The notes under the pieces were generated by a model that was not told where the DNA came from, searched no databases, and saw nothing but the letters and a program-made list of their open reading frames with translations. Made by a program: the position numbers and the translations under genes. A stretch of 50,908 nt of DNA, taken from the NCBI GenBank assembly GCA_025927765.1, contig JAICKU010000019.1, forward strand, positions 1 to 50,908, given 5' to 3'. Origin of the DNA: Burkholderiales bacterium. Its GTDB lineage: Bacteria > Pseudomonadota > Gammaproteobacteria > Burkholderiales > Casimicrobiaceae. Of the stretch, positions 35,177 to 43,319 are shown in pieces. Positions within the stretch are counted from its first letter, which is position 1. Each line of letters begins with the position of its first letter.

Positions 35177-36988
35177 ATGCCCTTTGCTGTGATGCGCGGG
35201 AAAAGCAGAAGGGCGGGGCGTGCGTTGAAGGCGTTTGCGGGTGTCCTCCTGTCGGTCATCGTCGTCGCCAGCGGCGCAAGGGCGGCCGACGATGCCGGCC
35301 CGAACGGCGACTGGCCGATGGCGGGCCACGATTACGCGAACACGCGCTTCAGCCCGCTCGATGAGATCAACGCCGCCAACGTCGGCAAGCTCTCGCTCGC
35401 GTTCACGTTCTCGACCGGCGTCCTGCGCGGGCACGAGGCGGCGCCGATCGTCGCGGACCACACGATGTTCGTCGTGACGCCGTTTCCGAACGTCGTCTAC
35501 GCGCTCGACCTCACGCAGCCCGGTGCGCCGATCAAGTGGAAGTTCTCGCCGTATCCGTCGTCGTCGGCACAGGGCGAGGCGTGCTGCGACGTGGTCAACC
35601 GCGGCGCTGCGTACGCCAACGGCAGCCTCTACTTCAACACGCTCGACAACCAGACGATCTCGCTCGATGCGAAGACCGGCAAGGAAAACTGGCGCGTGCA
35701 GCTCGGCGACTTCGCCCGCGGCGAAACGATGACGATGGCGCCGCTCGTCGCCGACGACAAGGTGTTCGTGGGCAACAGCGGCGGTGAATACGGCGTGCGC
35801 GGCTTTCTGCAGGCGCTCGACGCGAAGAGCGGCAAGGCGTTGTGGCGTGCGTACAGCACCGGGCCCGACGCCGACGTCCTGATCGGGCCGACGTTCAAGC
35901 CGTTCTATGCGCAGGACCAGGGCAAGAACCTCGGCGTCTCCAGCTGGCCGGGCGAGGCGTGGAAGATCGGTGGTGGAACGGTATGGGGCTTCGTGTCGTA
36001 CGACCCCGCGCAGAACACCCTCTATTACGGCACGGGCAACCCGGGGCCCTGGAATCCCGCGCAGCGCCCCGGCGACAACAAGTGGACGTCGGGCGTGTTC
36101 GCGCGCGACGCGGGCACCGGCGAGGCGCGCTGGTACTACCAGATGAGCCCGCACGACCTGCACGACTACGACGGGATCAACGAGAGCATCCTGGTGGACG
36201 TCGCGGTGAACGGGCAGACGCACCCTGCGCTCGTGCATCCCGATCGCAACGGCTACGTGTACGTGATCGACCGCACGAACGGACAGGTGCTGTCGGCAAC
36301 GCCGTTCGTGCCGATCACGACGTCGATGGGCGTCGACATGAAGAGCGGACGCATTCAATGGAATCCCGACAAGCAGCCGGAGCCGGGCAAGACCGTGCGC
36401 GACATCTGCCCGGCGTCGCCCGGCGGCAAGGACTGGCAACCCTCCGCGTATTCGCCGCGTACGCATCTCGTCTACATCCCGCACCAGAACCTCTGCCAGG
36501 ACGCGATGACGTCGCAGGTGAGCTACATCGCCGGCACGCCGTACGTCGGCGCCGACCTCAAGATCAAGGTCGGTCCGGGCGGCAAGCGCGGCCTTTTCAC
36601 CGCGTGGGACCCGGCTGCGGCGAAGGCGGCATGGAAGATCGAGGAGGATTTCCCGGTGTGGAGCGGCGCGCTCGCGACCGCCGGTGACCTCGTGTTCTAC
36701 GGCACCATGGACGGCTGGTTCAAGGCCGTCGACGCGAAGAGCGGCAAGGCGCTCTGGCGATTCAAGACGGGGTCGGGAATCGTGGGGCAACCGGTCGCGT
36801 ACCGCGGTCCCGACGGAAAGGAATACGTCGCCGTGTTGTCCGGCGTCGGCGGATGGGCGGGCGGCATCGTCGCGGGCGATCTCGACGCGCGTGACGCGAG
36901 CGCGGGCGGCGGCTTCGTCAACGCGATGTCGGACCTGCCGCAAAAGACCGCGAAGGGCGGCATGCTCTATGTCTTCGCGTTGCCGTAG
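35177..36988 (+). CDS. PQQ-dependent alcohol dehydrogenase, lanthanide-type (XoxF/ExaF-like)
   Basis: Periplasmic quinoprotein of the methanol/ethanol dehydrogenase family, oxidising an alcohol and passing electrons to cytochrome c. Signal peptide (KAFAGVLLSVIVVASGARA), eight-bladed propeller repeats, the adjacent Cys136-Cys137 disulfide ring (GEACCDVVNRG), Glu204 in NSGGEYG and Asn288 in GTGNPGPWNP as metal ligands, and catalytic Asp330 in HDYDGINE with Asp332 two residues on. That extra Asp marks lanthanide-using enzymes. The residue before Asp330 is His rather than the usual Trp. The C-terminus GGWAGGIVAGDL is also family-like. 603 residues; start ATG 35177 or 35192. Substrate cannot be told from sequence. 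First gene of an eight-gene operon. Confidence 0.93.
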   Translation: MPFAVMRGKSRRAGRALKAFAGVLLSVIVVASGARAADDAGPNGDWPMAGHDYANTRFSPLDEINAANVGKLSLAFTFSTGVLRGHEAAPIVADHTMFVVTPFPNVVYALDLTQPGAPIKWKFSPYPSSSAQGEACCDVVNRGAAYANGSLYFNTLDNQTISLDAKTGKENWRVQLGDFARGETMTMAPLVADDKVFVGNSGGEYGVRGFLQALDAKSGKALWRAYSTGPDADVLIGPTFKPFYAQDQGKNLGVSSWPGEAWKIGGGTVWGFVSYDPAQNTLYYGTGNPGPWNPAQRPGDNKWTSGVFARDAGTGEARWYYQMSPHDLHDYDGINESILVDVAVNGQTHPALVHPDRNGYVYVIDRTNGQVLSATPFVPITTSMGVDMKSGRIQWNPDKQPEPGKTVRDICPASPGGKDWQPSAYSPRTHLVYIPHQNLCQDAMTSQVSYIAGTPYVGADLKIKVGPGGKRGLFTAWDPAAAKAAWKIEEDFPVWSGALATAGDLVFYGTMDGWFKAVDAKSGKALWRFKTGSGIVGQPVAYRGPDGKEYVAVLSGVGGWAGGIVAGDLDARDASAGGGFVNAMSDLPQKTAKGGMLYVFALP

Positions 36989-37790
36989 CCGCTTCGTCAT
37001 TCTCGCCTGCGCCTTTGCGCTCGGCATGGCAGGCGTCGCGGCCGCCGACGCACGCGAGTTGCGGGTGTGCGCCGACCCGGACGGCCTGCCGTACTCGAAC
37101 CGCGCCGGCGAGGGCTTCGAGAACCGCATCGCGGCGCTCGTCGCGAACGATCTCGGCGAGACGTTGACCTATTACTGGCTGCCGCAGTGGCGCGGCTACG
37201 CGCGGAAGACGCTCGGGCAGCGCCACTGCGACGTGATCCCCGGCATCGCGCACGACGACGAGACGGTGCTCGCGACGGATCCCTATTACCGTGGCACGTA
37301 CGCGCTCGTCTATGCGCCTGCGCGCTTCCCGGACCTCGACAGTCTCGACGATCCGCGCCTGCGGTCGCTTCGCATCGGCATCCAGGTGATCGGCATCGAT
37401 GCCACGCCGTCGCCGCCCGCGCAGGCGCTCGCGCGGCGCGGCCTCGTCGACAACATCGTGGGCTATCCGGTGATGGGCGAAGTGCCCTCCGCGAAGCGGA
37501 TCGTCGACGCGCTCGCCGCGGGCCATCTCGACGTCGGCGTCGTCTGGTCGCCGCAACCGGGCTACTTCATCGCGGCGCGCAGGCTGCCGTTCGCGGTCGT
37601 GCCGATCCGGCGCGAGGCGGGCGATCCGCGCTTCGATTTCGCGATCTCGATGGGCGTGCGCCACGACGACGTCGCGCTGCAGCGCGCGGTGAACGCGTCG
37701 CTCGCGCATCTGCGGCCTGCGATCGACGACGTTCTGCGCGAGTACGCGGTCACGCGCGCCGACGCTCCGCCAGCGAAGGCCGCCCGATGA
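36969..37790 (+). CDS. XoxJ/MxaJ-like periplasmic quinoprotein-associated protein
   Basis: Substrate-binding-protein fold partner found beside PQQ alcohol dehydrogenases. Signal peptide (RFVILACAFALGMAGVAAADA), then ELRVCADPDGLPYSNRAGEGF, LTYYWLPQWRGYARKTLGQRHCDVIPGI, DPYYRGTYALVYAP and DVGVVWSPQPGYFIA, matching the quinoprotein-associated family. In characterised systems the relative XoxJ/MxaJ supports maturation or activity of the dehydrogenase. ATG at 36969 overlaps the dehydrogenase gene by 20 nt; its stop overlaps the next ATG as ATGA. 273 residues. Confidence 0.88.
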   Translation: MSSRCRSRFVILACAFALGMAGVAAADARELRVCADPDGLPYSNRAGEGFENRIAALVANDLGETLTYYWLPQWRGYARKTLGQRHCDVIPGIAHDDETVLATDPYYRGTYALVYAPARFPDLDSLDDPRLRSLRIGIQVIGIDATPSPPAQALARRGLVDNIVGYPVMGEVPSAKRIVDALAAGHLDVGVVWSPQPGYFIAARRLPFAVVPIRREAGDPRFDFAISMGVRHDDVALQRAVNASLAHLRPAIDDVLREYAVTRADAPPAKAAR

Positions 37791-38335
37791 ACGTTCGCGC
37801 GGCGTGCTGTGTGGTTGCGGCGATCGTCTCGCTCGCCGCCTGCCAGCGCGAGAAGCGCGACTTCGAAGCCCCGACGAAGGCCGTGACGCCGCCGCCGGTG
37901 CGCCTCTCCGAGATCCAGCCGGGGGCGATCTCGACGAAGACGAGCCTCGAGGGCAAGTACGAGGACAACGCGTTCGCGCTCTCCGAAGGCAAGCGGCTGT
38001 TCGGCTGGTACAACTGCACCGGCTGCCACGCCCATGGCGGCGGCGACAAGGGGCCGGCGCTGATGGATCGCGTTTGGATCTACGGCAGCGAGCCGGCGCA
38101 GATCTACGCGACGATCGTCGAGGGCCGCCCGAACGGCATGCCGTCCTTCGGCGGCCACATTCCGGACAACGAGGTGTGGGAGCTCGTCGCCTACGTGCGT
38201 TCGCTGTCGGGGCTGGCGTCGGGAATGGCGTCGCCGAATCGCTCGGACACGATGCACGTGAAGGCGCCCGAGAGCAACGTCGAGGCGCAACAGCCGGTCA
38301 CCGCGGCCCCGTCGGGCGCGTCCGAGCGGCCATGA
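37787..38335 (+). CDS. Cytochrome c lipoprotein
   Basis: Single-haem c-type cytochrome. Lipobox LAAC at residues 16-19 (VSLAACQREKRDF) predicts lipid anchoring; haem motif CTGCH in FGWYNCTGCHAHGGGDKGPALMD; the distal Met is probably in GRPNGMPSFGGHIPDNEVWELVAYVRSL. 182 residues with a low-complexity tail. ATG at 37787 and the downstream coxB ATG are both ATGA overlaps. Its position between the dehydrogenase and the oxidase genes suggests it carries electrons from the quinoprotein to subunit II (inference). Confidence 0.92.
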   Translation: MNVRAACCVVAAIVSLAACQREKRDFEAPTKAVTPPPVRLSEIQPGAISTKTSLEGKYEDNAFALSEGKRLFGWYNCTGCHAHGGGDKGPALMDRVWIYGSEPAQIYATIVEGRPNGMPSFGGHIPDNEVWELVAYVRSLSGLASGMASPNRSDTMHVKAPESNVEAQQPVTAAPSGASERP

Positions 38336-39300
38336 CGGGCGGCCTGCACGACGTCGAGGCGCCGGCAGGCGCGCAGGCGCAGGCGATCGCGCAGCTGTGG
38401 CACGTGCTGCTGCCGGTGTGCACGATCGTGTTCGTCGCGGTGCTCGTCGCCGTGTTCGTCGCGCTGCGGCGTGCGCCGCGTGCCACCCGCGAGACGGCGC
38501 CCGACGTGTCGTCGCTGTCGCAGCCCGAGCCGGCGCTCGCGCGCGCGGTGTGGGCCGGCGTCATCGTCTGCGCGGTGCTGCTGCTCGGCCTGCTCGCGGC
38601 GAGCGTGTTCACCGATCGCGCGCTCGCGCGGCTGCCGCTCGAAGACGCGCTGCACATCCGGCTGACCGGATACCAGTGGTGGTGGGAGGCGCAATACGAC
38701 GATCCGGCGCCGTCGCGGATCTTCACGACGGCCAACGAGCTGCACGTGCCGGTCGGCCGCCCGGTGATCGTGACGCTCGTCGGCGCGGACGTGATCCACA
38801 GCTTCTGGGTGCCGAGCCTGCACGGCAAGAAGGACCTGATTCCCGGGCGACCGCAGACGATCTCGTTTCGCGCCGATCGTCCCGGCGTCTATCGCGGCAC
38901 CTGCGCCGAATATTGCGGCTACCAGCACGCGCACATGGTGTTGTACGTGATCGCCGATACGCCGAACGACTTCGCGTACTGGGCCGCGCGGCAACGCGCA
39001 CCGGCGGCGAAGCCCGCTTCGGCGCTCGCGCAGCAGGGCGCGGAGCTCTTCCTGCAAAAGAGCTGCGCGATGTGCCATGCGATCGATGGCACCGGCGCGC
39101 AGGGACGCAACGCGCCGAACCTCACGCACGTCGCGAGCCGCATGACGATCGGCGCGGGTACGCTCGCGAACAGCGTGACCAACCGCGCTGCGTGGATCCT
39201 CGATCCGCAGCAGTTCAAGCCCGGCGCGAACATGCCCTCGCAGAACATGGCGCCGGACGAGCTCGCGGCCATCAACGCGTACCTGGGGACGTTGCAGTGA
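38332..39300 (+). CDS. coxB: caa3-type cytochrome c oxidase subunit II with fused cytochrome c
   Basis: Two membrane helices (about 20-42 and 70-92) anchor a periplasmic CuA domain with all expected ligands: His in ADVIHSFWVPSL and CAEYCGYQHAHM (two Cys, Glu, His, Met). The WWWEAQYD aromatic patch for electron entry is present. A C-terminal cytochrome c domain (about 225-322) carries CAMCHAIDGTG and a distal Met in GANMPSQNM, the caa3 arrangement. No cleavable signal peptide is evident. 322 residues; ATG at 38332 overlaps the cytochrome gene by 4 nt. A 61-nt gap with a short GCGC palindrome and GGAGGG separates it from coxA. Confidence 0.95.
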   Translation: MTGGLHDVEAPAGAQAQAIAQLWHVLLPVCTIVFVAVLVAVFVALRRAPRATRETAPDVSSLSQPEPALARAVWAGVIVCAVLLLGLLAASVFTDRALARLPLEDALHIRLTGYQWWWEAQYDDPAPSRIFTTANELHVPVGRPVIVTLVGADVIHSFWVPSLHGKKDLIPGRPQTISFRADRPGVYRGTCAEYCGYQHAHMVLYVIADTPNDFAYWAARQRAPAAKPASALAQQGAELFLQKSCAMCHAIDGTGAQGRNAPNLTHVASRMTIGAGTLANSVTNRAAWILDPQQFKPGANMPSQNMAPDELAAINAYLGTLQ

Positions 39301-39361: not shown

Positions 39362-41350
39362 ATGAGCCGTCTCCTTGCGGCGCTCGATCCGCGTGAGTTG
39401 CGCAAGGCCGCTCGCGCGTCGGTCGGGCGCGGCGAGGCGATCTACGACGGACCCGGTTGGGGCTCGCCGGCTGCGAGCGCGCTCGACCGCACGTGGCGCG
39501 AAAAGCCCGGAGTGCGTGGCTGGCTCGAGACTGTCGATCACAAGCGCACGGGCAAGCGTTTCGTCTTCACCTCCTTCGTGTTCTTCTGCGCCGCCGGCAT
39601 CCTTGCCGCGATCATGCGCTCGCAGCTCGCGTTTCCCGACAGCCATCTCGTCGGACCGGACCTGTACGACCAGATGTTCACGATGCACGGCACGACGATG
39701 ATGTTCATCTTCGCGGTGCCGGTGATGCAGGGCATGGCCGTGTACCTGATCCCGCTCATGGTCGGCACGCGCAACACCGCGTTCCCGCGCATGACCGCCT
39801 GCGCGTTCTGGTTGTACCTGCTGGGCTCGCTGTCGCTCTGGGTGGGCTTCGCGCTCAACACGGGCGCCGACGCCGGATGGTTCGCGTACGTGCCGCTCGC
39901 CGGTCCCGAATATGGCATCGGCAAGCGTTCGGATCTTTGGAACAACCTGATCAACCTCACCGAAGCGATGGGGCTCATGGTCGCCGTCGACTTGGCGACC
40001 GTGATCCTCAAGATGCGCGCGCCCGGCATGTCGCTTCGCCGCATGCCGGTGTTCGCCTGGTCGATTCTCGTGACGTCGGTGATGATCATCTTCGCGATGC
40101 CGTCGGTGATGCTCGCCGCGAACCTCGCGCAGTTCGACCGCACGTTCGCCACGCATTTCTTCAATCCGGCCGAAGGCGGCGACGTGCTGATCTGGCAGCA
40201 CCTGTTCTGGTTCTTCGGCCACCCGGAGGTCTACTTCATCTTCATTCCGGCGCTCGGCTTCATCTCGACGATCATCCCGACGTTCGCGCGGCGCCCGCTG
40301 TTCGGCCACACCGCCGTCGTGCTGTCGATGATCGCGACCGGCTTCCTCGCGTTCGGGCTGTGGGTGCACCACATGTTCGCGACGAACCTGCCCGAGCTCG
40401 GCAAGGGATTCTTCACCGCGATGAGCATGATGATCGCGATCCCGACCGCCGTGCAGATCTTCTGCTGGATCGCGACGCTGTGGTCGGGCCGCATCAACCT
40501 GCGCGCGCCGATCCTGTTCGTACTCGGGTTCTTCTTCATCCTGGTGCTGGGCGGCATGACGGGGATCATGATCGGCGCGGTGCCGTTCGACCTGCAGGTG
40601 CACGACAGCTACTTCATCGTTGCGCACCTGCACTACGTGCTGCTGGGGGGTGCGGTCTTCCCGCTCTTCGCCGCCTTCTACTACTGGTTCCCGAAGTTCA
40701 CAGGGCGCCTGCTCGACGAGCGCCTCGGGCGCTGGCAGTTCTGGACGTTCTTCGTGGGCTTCAACGTCACGTTCTTCCCGATGCACCTGCTCGGCCTCGC
40801 CGGCATGCCGCGGCGCATCTACACGTACGCGGCGGACACCGGATGGGGGACGCTGAACCTCGTCGCGACGATCGGCGCCGCGATCATCGCCGTCAGCGTG
40901 CTGCTGTTCGTCGTGAATGTCATTCGCACGCGCGCCGGAGGCGAGGCCGCGGGCGACGACCCTTGGGGCGCGGCGACGCTCGAGTGGGCGACGCATTCGC
41001 CGCCGCCGGCGTTCAACTTCGTCGCGCTGCCCGTGGTCGCGTCGCGCGAGCCGCTGTGGGCGCGCGAGGCCGACGAGCCGACGCACGTCAGCGGGCTGTC
41101 CGCGCAGGTGCGCGAAGGCCTCGTGACGACCGTTCTCGACGCGTTGCCCGACGTGCGCTACGCGTATCCGTCGCCGTCGATCTGGCCGGCCGTCGCCGCA
41201 GTGACTGTCGTCGTGTGGCTCTTCTGGTCGAACGTCACGCCGTCGGGCATGTGGTACGGCCTGATTCCTCCCGCGATCGCGTTCATCCTGTGGTATTGGC
41301 CGACGCGCAGGGAGACGGCGGAGCAGCTGTTGCTGCAGCGGCGGCCATGA
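39362..41350 (+). CDS. coxA: Cytochrome c oxidase subunit I, lacking canonical D- and K-channel residues
   Basis: Catalytic haem-copper subunit, 662 residues, about 12 core helices plus C-terminal extra helices. Haem a ligands His109 (FTMHGTTMM) and His423; haem a3 ligand His421 (VAHLHYV); CuB ligands His287, His335, His336; Glu289 and the cross-linked Tyr291 in GHPEVYF. Yet the D-channel motif normally GxxDxAFPxxNN reads GTRNTAFPRMTA, with Asn138 instead of Asp and Thr145-Ala146 instead of Asn-Asn, and the K-channel lysine in PTGIKIF is Gln364 in PTAVQIF. Proton uptake and pumping may therefore differ. These channel readings are from memory of model enzymes, not from an alignment. The stop overlaps a mini-ORF. 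Confidence 0.96.
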   Translation: MSRLLAALDPRELRKAARASVGRGEAIYDGPGWGSPAASALDRTWREKPGVRGWLETVDHKRTGKRFVFTSFVFFCAAGILAAIMRSQLAFPDSHLVGPDLYDQMFTMHGTTMMFIFAVPVMQGMAVYLIPLMVGTRNTAFPRMTACAFWLYLLGSLSLWVGFALNTGADAGWFAYVPLAGPEYGIGKRSDLWNNLINLTEAMGLMVAVDLATVILKMRAPGMSLRRMPVFAWSILVTSVMIIFAMPSVMLAANLAQFDRTFATHFFNPAEGGDVLIWQHLFWFFGHPEVYFIFIPALGFISTIIPTFARRPLFGHTAVVLSMIATGFLAFGLWVHHMFATNLPELGKGFFTAMSMMIAIPTAVQIFCWIATLWSGRINLRAPILFVLGFFFILVLGGMTGIMIGAVPFDLQVHDSYFIVAHLHYVLLGGAVFPLFAAFYYWFPKFTGRLLDERLGRWQFWTFFVGFNVTFFPMHLLGLAGMPRRIYTYAADTGWGTLNLVATIGAAIIAVSVLLFVVNVIRTRAGGEAAGDDPWGAATLEWATHSPPPAFNFVALPVVASREPLWAREADEPTHVSGLSAQVREGLVTTVLDALPDVRYAYPSPSIWPAVAAVTVVVWLFWSNVTPSGMWYGLIPPAIAFILWYWPTRRETAEQLLLQRRP

Positions 41351-42096: not shown

Positions 42097-42423
42097 ATGC
42101 GCATCTGGTACCCGCTCCTCGTCGTCCCGCTGCTCGCGCTCGCCGATCAGAGCATCGCGTACGTCACCACGGTGTGGGCCTGCACGCACCAGAACTTGGT
42201 CGCGGTGCACGTCGTCCACGCACCCTTCCTGCTCCTCGCGGCGGTCGGCGTGGTGATGGCGTGGGACCGATGGCGCGCGTCGGCGCCGGCGAAGTCGCAG
42301 AACGACATGCTCGCACGGCGGCACTTCGTCGCCGGCCTCGCGACGGGCGTCGCGGCGCTGTCCGTGCTCGTGATCGGCGCGATGTGGGGGATCACGTGGG
42401 CATTGCCACCCTGCGTGTACTGA
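42097..42423 (+). CDS. Small membrane protein of unknown function in the oxidase operon
   Basis: 108 residues with about three hydrophobic helices (5-25, 37-58, 80-101), a short polar loop (RWRASAPAKSQNDMLARRH) and two Cys (VWACTHQN, LPPCVY). I do not recognise a family. It starts 10 nt after coxC and overlaps ctaG by 28 nt, so it is surely part of the operon. A role as an oxidase accessory or subunit IV-like protein is conceivable but not shown. Confidence 0.8.
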   Translation: MRIWYPLLVVPLLALADQSIAYVTTVWACTHQNLVAVHVVHAPFLLLAAVGVVMAWDRWRASAPAKSQNDMLARRHFVAGLATGVAALSVLVIGAMWGITWALPPCVY

Positions 42424-43319
42424 TCGCCGCGGCACTCGCGGCGACGCCCGGCGCCGGCATCGCGCACGCGTTGCCGGTGAGCGGCGGCGATGATACTGCG
42501 TTCGACGCCATTCTCGCGGGACTGCTCGTTGTCGCCTGCGTTCTCTACGCGTGCGGCGTCGTACGGTTATGGCGCAAGGCCGGCGTGGGCCGCGGCATAC
42601 GTCCCGGCGACGTCGTGCGGTTTGCGCTCGGCATGATGACGCTCGTCGTCGCGCTGCTGTCGCCGCTCGACGTGCTCGCGTCGCGATCGTTCGCCGCGCA
42701 CATGATCGGGCACGAGCTGCTGATGATCGTCGCGGCGCCGCTTTTCGTGCTGTCGCGCCCATTGGAGGCGTGGGCATGGGCGCTCGCGCGGCCGGCGCGC
42801 CGTGCGGTCAGGTCGTTCACGCATGCGCCGGGTGTGCGTCGCGTCTGGCTTACGCTGGCGGCGCCGGTTGCGGCCGCTTGCCTGCACGGGCTCGCGCTCT
42901 GGATCTGGCACCTGCCCGCACTATTCGTGGCGGCACTCGAAAGCGCTGGCATGCACGTACTCCAGCATGCGTGCTTTTTCGGATCGGCACTCGCGTTCTG
43001 GTGGGCGATGTTCGGCGGCGCCGCCCGCGTGCCCGGCGGTGCGTCGCTCGCGTGCCTGTTCGCGACGATGCTGCATACGAGTGCGCTCGGCGCACTGCTT
43101 ACGCTCGCGCCGAGCGCGCTGTACGAACACGCGAACCCCGACGTGCTCGGATTGTCACCCCTCGAGGACCAGCAACTCGGCGGGCTCGTGATGTGGGTGC
43201 CCGGTGGACTCGCGTATGTCGTCGCCGGCCTGATGATCGTCGCCGTCTGGCTGCGCGCGCCGCCGCACGCACTGCCGCCGGCCGGCGCGCTGTCGCCCGG
43301 ACGAGCACGGTCGGCATGA
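42396..43319 (+). CDS. ctaG: Cytochrome c oxidase assembly protein, CtaG (Caa3_CtaG) family
   Basis: Polytopic membrane protein of the caa3-assembly type (distinct from Cox11). Seven or so helices with conserved His-rich pieces: FAAHMIGHELLMIVAAPLFVLSRP, LHGLALWIWHLPALFVAAL, MHVLQHACFFGSALAFWWA and CLFATMLHTSALGALLTL. It is thought to help copper delivery to the oxidase. GTG at 42396 is the first plausible start; it overlaps the preceding gene by 28 nt. 307 residues. Last gene of the respiratory operon; a 135-bp gap with a promoter-like sequence follows before pckG. Confidence 0.88.
   Translation: MGIATLRVLIAAALAATPGAGIAHALPVSGGDDTAFDAILAGLLVVACVLYACGVVRLWRKAGVGRGIRPGDVVRFALGMMTLVVALLSPLDVLASRSFAAHMIGHELLMIVAAPLFVLSRPLEAWAWALARPARRAVRSFTHAPGVRRVWLTLAAPVAAACLHGLALWIWHLPALFVAALESAGMHVLQHACFFGSALAFWWAMFGGAARVPGGASLACLFATMLHTSALGALLTLAPSALYEHANPDVLGLSPLEDQQLGGLVMWVPGGLAYVVAGLMIVAVWLRAPPHALPPAGALSPGRARSA

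Follow-up and report, generated by a model that had tools for sequence, protein, structure and literature searches.

A clade of A-type haem-copper oxidases without the D-channel mouth aspartate and the K-channel lysine, and with new acidic residues in the D-channel region

Proton entry into bacterial A-type haem-copper oxidases is ascribed to two channels, D and K, and single changes in either block or uncouple the enzyme. According to the portions covered of the sources cited here, Asn139Asp in the Rhodobacter oxidase uncouples pumping with slightly raised activity and Asn207Asp uncouples it too, whereas the equivalent mutants of the mammalian enzyme have no effect on pumping (PMC6934443); the pKa effects of both substitutions are dealt with in PMC5040959, and conversion of the mouth Asp to Asn impairs activity and blocks uptake (PMC8361435). 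K-channel loss inside family A, a feature shared with the oxidase reported here, is on record for archaeal oxidases without a canonical K-channel, where seven losses are counted under one hypothesis and an acidic helix IV site is not described in the parts covered (PMC8239418).

Among bacterial oxidases, the COX operon type a-II of Degli Esposti et al. 2014 (PMC4013037) encodes a COX1 of 630-670 residues with a C-terminal extension, this part being homologous to COX4/CtaF, and a COX3 of five helices, and often has a PQQ dehydrogenase nearby; it was later termed 'A1, subtype a', and Caa3_CtaG accompanies the subtype a operons (PMC6431628). The main text on type a-II contains no word beginning with 'proton'; the present analysis adds the channel changes. 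The alternative oxidases coxMNOP and ccaa3 (PMC5492768) share a CuA subunit fused to cytochrome c; channel analysis is absent in the parts covered of that source. Among the holders named there, Sinorhizobium meliloti and Mesorhizobium belong to genera also found in the outer or window-type clades defined below. In the parts of the literature covered, no description was found of a joint Asp and Lys loss with new helix IV acids.

The window, the whole stretch of 50,908 nucleotides of contig JAICKU010000019.1 that was analysed, carries a COX operon that matches the published type a-II, with the gene for a PQQ alcohol dehydrogenase next to it (Table 1). The 662 residues of CoxA lie inside the type a-II range, the TIGR03075 dehydrogenase supplies the PQQ enzyme often seen in such clusters, and Caa3_CtaG is present as in subtype a operons. 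Genes for the dehydrogenase, the MoxJ-like protein, the cytochrome and CoxB lie upstream of coxA, and those for CoxC, the small protein and Caa3_CtaG downstream. The coxC product is matched by profiles under their cut-offs (PF00510, E 0.0011; NF050119, E 3e-9), and the ctaG interval starts at a chosen codon inside a longer open frame (42174-43319), its start not being settled. In the window-type loci examined the operon is kept (CoxB 20/20, CoxC 20/20, CtaG 19/20), and homologues of the small hydrophobic protein occur at 5 of 20.

Table 1. Genes and key CoxA residues in the window, with residue counts for the groups of homologues described in the text
Feature	Position	Strand	Basis or distribution
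PQQ-dependent methanol/ethanol-family dehydrogenase	35177..36988	+	TIGR03075, 651.6 bits (cut-off 480)
MoxJ-like quinoprotein-associated periplasmic protein	36969..37790	+	TIGR03871, 257.3 bits (cut-off 212)
c-type cytochrome (CTGCH), lipoprotein-like signal by eye	37787..38335	+	PF13442, 53.5 bits; motif
coxB, subunit II with CuA motif and fused cytochrome c	38332..39300	+	TIGR02866, 150.9 bits (cut-off 147.7)
coxA, A-type haem-copper oxidase subunit I, 662 aa	39362..41350	+	C-terminal extension modelled as helical stretches
Arg66, helix I start, adjoins Paracoccus Tyr35 site	39557..39559	+	Arg 31/31 window-type, 21/52 outer; basic 0/61 canonical
Gln123, helix II	39728..39730	+	Glu 52/52 outer, 19/31 window-type; acidic 0/61 canonical
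Val127 for D-channel Asn113 (Paracoccus)	39740..39742	+	Asn 0/31 window-type, 0/52 outer, 61/61 canonical
Asn138 (codon AAC) for D-channel mouth Asp (Paracoccus D124, Rhodobacter D132)	39773..39775	+	Alignment
Thr145 for D-channel Asn131 (Paracoccus; Rhodobacter N139)	39794..39796	+	Alignment column
Glu201, helix IV, new carboxylate	39962..39964	+	83/83 in clade; Gly in 60/61 canonical
Asp210 for D-channel Asn199 (Paracoccus; Rhodobacter N207)	39989..39991	+	Acidic 21/31 window-type, 52/52 outer; Asn 61/61 canonical
Glu289-Val-Tyr291 (HPEVY), proton-shuttle Glu and cross-linked Tyr, both kept	40226..40234	+	Alignment
Gln365 (codon CAG) for K-channel Lys (Paracoccus K354, Rhodobacter K362)	40454..40456	+	Alignment
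coxC, short divergent subunit III-like protein, 232 aa	41388..42086	+	Aligned with clade CoxC
Small hydrophobic protein, 108 aa	42097..42423	+	NCBIfam none; one Pfam match under cut-off
ctaG, Caa3_CtaG-type CuB assembly factor	42411..43319	+	PF09678, 179.3 bits; TIGR02737 under cut-off

CoxA, from a respiratory enzyme related to mitochondrial cytochrome oxidase, belongs to family A by descent, in sequence as well as in fold, yet fails the channel-based definition of A1. It scores 491.1 bits with PF00115 and 675.5 bits with TIGR02891 (cut-off 670.75), and in phmmer comparisons with solved structures its best matches are family A chains (171-490 bits), ba3 chains reaching 40-49 bits. An AlphaFold2 model built on an alignment of the window protein with 49 of 84 listed sequences (pLDDT 87.9, pTM 0.91) has 2yev_A as its top Foldseek match (TM-score 0.82 by query length), the best matches again being family A chains. 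Helices are modelled at 608-659 in the C-terminal part, for which no Pfam COX4 match was obtained. C-terminal extensions were not counted for the outer clade, where the cut-outs were padded and some open frames, as long as 1814 residues, may include COX3 fusions; one Achromobacter frame (L039:3025-8466, 1814 residues) matches COX1 39-614 once and 39-241 again upstream in the same frame.

The six His that the haem-copper superfamily uses for the low-spin haem, haem a3 and CuB are present in CoxA at 109, 287, 336, 337, 422 and 424, and are His in 153 of 153 rows of the four groups of homologues. Glu278 and the cross-linked Tyr280, expected of A1 in Paracoccus numbering (PMC3084760, part covered), are found as Glu289 and Tyr291. 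The original prediction, made from the letters of the window, of retained haem a, haem a3 and CuB ligands, Glu289 and Tyr291 holds, and catalysis at haem a3/CuB should be normal.

Homologues were gathered by a contig scan (at least 595 stretches matched, at least 593 relatives, best 80 kept) and by searches of 61 relatives, 369 class genomes and 398 phylum genomes, the class and phylum searches using an E cut-off of 1e-150, with scoring limited to three candidates in each genome and output to 30 loci. From frames with matches of E 1e-60 or better came 154 distinct COX1 rows. Because each was found through its likeness to the protein of the window, proportions among the rows are not a census; two window copies and five short frames (two at L092, two at L087, one at L004) were left out, and L005-L008 had no frame under the cut-off. 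The window-type group (A) comprises 31 rows with Asn (23) or Ser (8) at 138, Glu201 and Gln365; the outer-clade group (B) 52 rows with Asp (49) or Glu (3) at 138, Glu201 and Gln365; and the canonical group (C) 61 rows with Lys365. Nine rows with Trp at 289 form the Trp group (W), and one row, L050, lies outside all four. Columns 138, 201, 365 and, for the Trp group, 289 define the groups, and independent support comes from other columns (66, 123, 127, 210, 368); the 83/83 for Glu201 is part of the definition and not independent support.

Both losses occur in all 30 window-type homologues, which are 51.8-70.1% identical to the window protein, and the double loss is a family trait of one clade rather than a one-off. 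The nearest row of the 154 with Asp or Glu at 138 has 51.3% identity and the nearest with Lys365 has 48.7%; none of the 154 rows pairs Lys365 with Asn/Ser138 or with Glu201, and none is Asp-less without Glu201. The predicted conservation of Asn138 and the Gln in homologues was borne out, with Asn or Ser at 138, and close homologues with the usual Asp and Lys, which the prediction had named as evidence against itself, were not found above those two identities. The window-type group was seen in at least 8 of 398 phylum genomes and at least 2 of 369 class genomes, the window's own being counted in each, and in at least 4 of 61 relatives (the window, G013, G021 and G023); its distribution is scattered. 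Clade members occur in cultivated genera including Bradyrhizobium, Mesorhizobium, Massilia and Paraburkholderia. The fragments at L092 in relative G023, outside the 154 rows, also have Asn and Gln; they represent the same oxidase at 73% identity, with a match split over two frames that may reflect a frameshift or an assembly fault.

With the Paracoccus residues listed in PMC3084760 (part covered) as reference, eleven channel residues were placed on the window at a constant offset, +14 up to Ser134 (N113 to V127, D124 to N138, N131 to T145, S134 to A148) and +11 from Ser193 (S193 to G204, N199 to D210, E278 to E289, Y280 to Y291, S291 to S302, T351 to T362, K354 to Q365); canonical rows mostly show the expected residue in these columns. 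By phmmer, Asn138 aligns without a gap to residue 115 of 6adq_F, the M. smegmatis subunit I, in which D115 is the D-pathway residue (Chem Rev review, part covered). In place of the A1 D-channel set the window has N138, V127, T145, D210, F67, A148 and G204, F67 standing in the Paracoccus Y35 column (Tyr in 61/61 canonical rows); of the K-channel set (Lys354, Thr351, Ser291) the Lys is replaced by Q365, and T362 and S302 are retained. The predicted replacement of the D-channel Asp by Asn138 is confirmed by the gap-free alignment and the constant offset, and the replacement of the K-channel Lys by Gln is likewise correct, at residue 365 instead of the 364 first given.

The altered columns are not equally constant. 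Asn is kept at the Asn131 site in 29 of 31 window-type rows, being changed only in the window (Thr) and L090 (Ser). Of the 31 window-type rows, 12 have Gln or His at 123 and 10 have V, I, S or G at 210. Asn at 210 is found in 0/31 window-type, 0/52 outer and 61/61 canonical rows. Glu289, Ser302 and Glu201 are kept in 31/31 window-type rows, Glu201 being the only universal one among the new acidic sites, and Cys368 occurs in 31/31 window-type rows, 21% of 52 outer rows and 0/61 canonical rows. A helical-wheel estimate puts 123 on the face of 127, but has 201 lying to the side of 204 and 210, which are lining residues. The D-channel appears to have been rebuilt and not only lost: the conserved Asn113 and Asn199 are gone, and acidic residues stand on helices II and IV and at the Asn199 site. 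The 'altered channels' of the original prediction are borne out by these changes at 123, 201 and 210 and at the two Asn sites. Its claim that proton-entry residues are lacking is too simple, since the D-channel region has gained acidic residues in helices II and IV. Of the substitutes it had named as evidence against itself, half were thus obtained: acids appear in that region, and a conserved new Lys or Arg in the K-channel helices was not found.

CoxB carries the CuA motif CAEYCGYQHAHM from C191 and a haem c site, CAMCH, at 245, as expected of a caa3-like CuA cytochrome c oxidase. Its Val73 stands in the column of the Glu at the K-channel mouth, E101 in Rhodobacter; the yeast residue is Glu82, according to the part covered of its source. 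This Glu is present in 41 of 42 subunit II rows of Lys-bearing loci, the one exception (L018), kept in the count, being the CoxB of that locus's window-type oxidase, and in 0/30 window-type (one gap), 0/51 outer and 0/8 Trp-group rows (one gap). The counts are unchanged with three columns allowed on either side, in a stretch that aligns less surely than subunit I; L030, with two oxidases at the locus, was left out, and the Lys side has 42 subunit II rows for 61 COX1, some loci having given no subunit II match. The K route seems to have been lost at both ends, through the subunit I Lys and the subunit II Glu.

Replacement of the Lys from another helix was considered and rejected, no gain of Lys or Arg inside helices VI or VIII reaching 60% of the 31 window-type rows. 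The basic gains that do reach this proportion (28, 65, 66, 188, 189, 217, 377, 381, 562 and 599) lie in helix I, helix ends, loops and terminal parts; at residue 345, where helix VIII begins, 9/31 have Arg.

Phylogenetic trees were built with nine key columns left out. In a tree of 109 of the 154 rows (all 93 without Lys and 16 of 61 with Lys), the window-type rows form one clade (support 97, starred), nested in a clade of window-type and five Asp-bearing rows (99, starred), and the window-type and outer rows group together (97, starred). A mixture-model tree of 43 rows drawn from the 109, from which the long-branched L001, L048, L050 and L031 were excluded, also gives a window-type clade (93/96, unstarred; one clade in 96% of 200 bootstrap trees), window-type plus outer rows (98/92, starred), and these with the Trp group apart from the canonical rows on which the root was placed (100/99, starred). 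The 'distinct oxidase clade' that had been predicted is recovered as these 31 rows. The fewest changes required are one loss of the Asp and one gain of Glu201, with five (109-row tree) or four (43-row tree) at residue 210; the mouth Asp was, on these trees, lost once. The Lys loss is wider than the Asp loss, extending over a clade of 83, and the two represent separate evolutionary steps. If the root lies among the Lys-bearing rows, as assumed, the order would be loss of the Lys, gain of the helix II and IV acids and loss of the Asp. The Trp-group rows and L050 lack the Lys and keep Asp138, Asn127 and Asn210.

The Trp group was a side finding: nine COX1 (L030:5926-7902, L093, L131, L141, L142, L143, L146, L148 and L123) have Trp for the D-channel Glu286 (HPWVY), with Ala (7), Thr (1) or Gln (1) for the Lys, and keep Asp124, Asn113, Asn131 and Asn199. 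Three of these rows are sister to the window's larger clade in the 43-row tree rooted on Lys-bearing rows. L050:5155-7941, an oxidase from an actinobacterial MAG, combines Gln at the K-channel Lys with a canonical D-channel and is a possible intermediate.

With the Rhodobacter and Paracoccus aa3 oxidases the window protein shares fold and active site, and its natural changes fall on the same residues as D132N, N139D, N207D and K362M; compared with those mutants, the changes of the clade co-occur and have become fixed, and three acidic sites are new in it. In the proposed course of events the K route would have been dismantled first, when Gln replaced the Lys of subunit I and the mouth Glu of subunit II disappeared; helices II and IV of the D-channel region would then have gained Glu at 123, 201 and 210 with loss of the Asn113/Asn199 pair; and in the window's branch the mouth Asp would have become Asn or Ser. 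Every proton, whether consumed in making water or pumped (if any are), would enter through one modified D-type route, in which internal carboxylates (Glu201, here with Asp210) may relay them to Glu289, and pumping may be weakened or lost.

The reading preferred here, to which an even chance (about 0.5) is given, is that of an active oxidase without a K route, with one remodelled, carboxylate-lined D-type route and with pumping probably lowered or lost. It is favoured because of the mutant results cited above together with the window residues, in which Asn207 is replaced by an acid, Asn139 by Thr, and the mouth Asp is missing, and reduced pumping is plausible by analogy with those mutants. Lost pumping does not follow automatically because the mammalian equivalents are unaffected. 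The reading supposes that 123, 201 and 210 face the channel, and geometry is its weak point, given the helical-wheel position of 201 off the lining face. Also against it are the non-acidic residues at 210 in 10 and at 123 in 12 of the 31 window-type rows, which leave Glu201 as the one universal site. A wider formulation, put forward more tentatively, is of a natural A-type oxidase, present in many Pseudomonadota, with one carboxylate-lined route, no K-channel, fixed changes at the sites of uncoupling mutants and a pump that evolution has uncoupled or rewired, serving high-potential electrons released by periplasmic alcohol oxidation.

The relocated carboxylates might instead restore normal coupling in a fully compensated pump, which is rather unlikely. 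In a Rhodobacter uncoupling and recoupling study, a double mutant with an acid inside the channel and loss of the mouth Asp reportedly regains pumping, and the window likewise pairs loss of the mouth Asp with inner acids under signs of purifying selection; however, that exact pairing is not required, an acid at 210 being missing in 10 of the 31 Asp-less rows, and the outer clade has the Asp with an acid at 210, the combination uncoupled in Rhodobacter. A sealed D mouth, with the new acids being structural and protons entering elsewhere, for instance by way of subunit III, an H-type path or the C-terminal extension, is less probable again. Arg66 beside the Tyr35 site in 31/31 Asp-less rows, Cys368 universal there, the loss in the window of the Ser134, Ser193 and Tyr35 sites as well (A148, G204, F67) and a short, divergent subunit III would suit it, but Glu289, Ser302 and Glu201 are all retained, no alternative route was identified and Arg66 is placed at the mouth by its sequence position.

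Sequencing error, a pseudogene or a non-functional oxidase is very improbable. Nothing beyond the missing textbook residues points that way, and the frame is full-length, the ligands are intact and dN/dS is 0.04-0.37 in six pairs of the Asp-less clade, which speaks for purifying selection; error and pseudogene were rejected on this ratio and on losses common to 31 sequences. The clade has lost two channel Asn and the subunit II Glu as well as both mouths, and still bears signs of purifying selection. The homologues offer a natural series, running from canonical through K-less and then K-less with inner acids to K-less and Asp-less, along which the part that each element plays in proton uptake and pumping can be measured.

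Electrons may plausibly pass from the neighbouring PQQ alcohol dehydrogenase through a c-type cytochrome to the cytochrome domain of CoxB, the cytochrome encoded at 37787..38335 being a possible link between dehydrogenase and oxidase. Within about 6 kb a PQQ dehydrogenase was found at 9/20 window-type, 1/25 outer and 0/37 canonical rows, counted by BLAST with the window's own gene at loci from the best-80 contig scan, where some contigs end before 6 kb. A tight link between oxidase and dehydrogenase was rejected, 11/20 window-type loci having none within that distance. The suggestion that the oxidase is tuned to a quinoprotein chain accordingly suits the window and nine of the 20 loci, and is opposed by the other 11 and by the failure to find pqqB and pqqC in the host.

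The host genome (95.6% complete assembly) has CtaA and a cytochrome c1 match, and no match to pqqB or pqqC was obtained in it. In the controls, pqqC matched 0/14 control genomes and pqqB matched six, under its cut-off; a positive-control search of 8 genomes detected pqqC in 3 (L014, Bradyrhizobium; L010, Paraburkholderia; G273), and it was not found in G013, G021, G023 or the L016 Massilia genome, all with the same oxidase. Either the host takes up PQQ or the pqq genes are missing from the assembly. The host genome (G000, 4.0 Mb) also holds eight COX1-family matches on seven contigs, two of them partial, representing several oxidase types. Residues 330-332 of the window's PQQ dehydrogenase are Asp-Tyr-Asp, an instance of the Asp-x-Asp motif that presumably marks lanthanide-dependent PQQ alcohol dehydrogenases.
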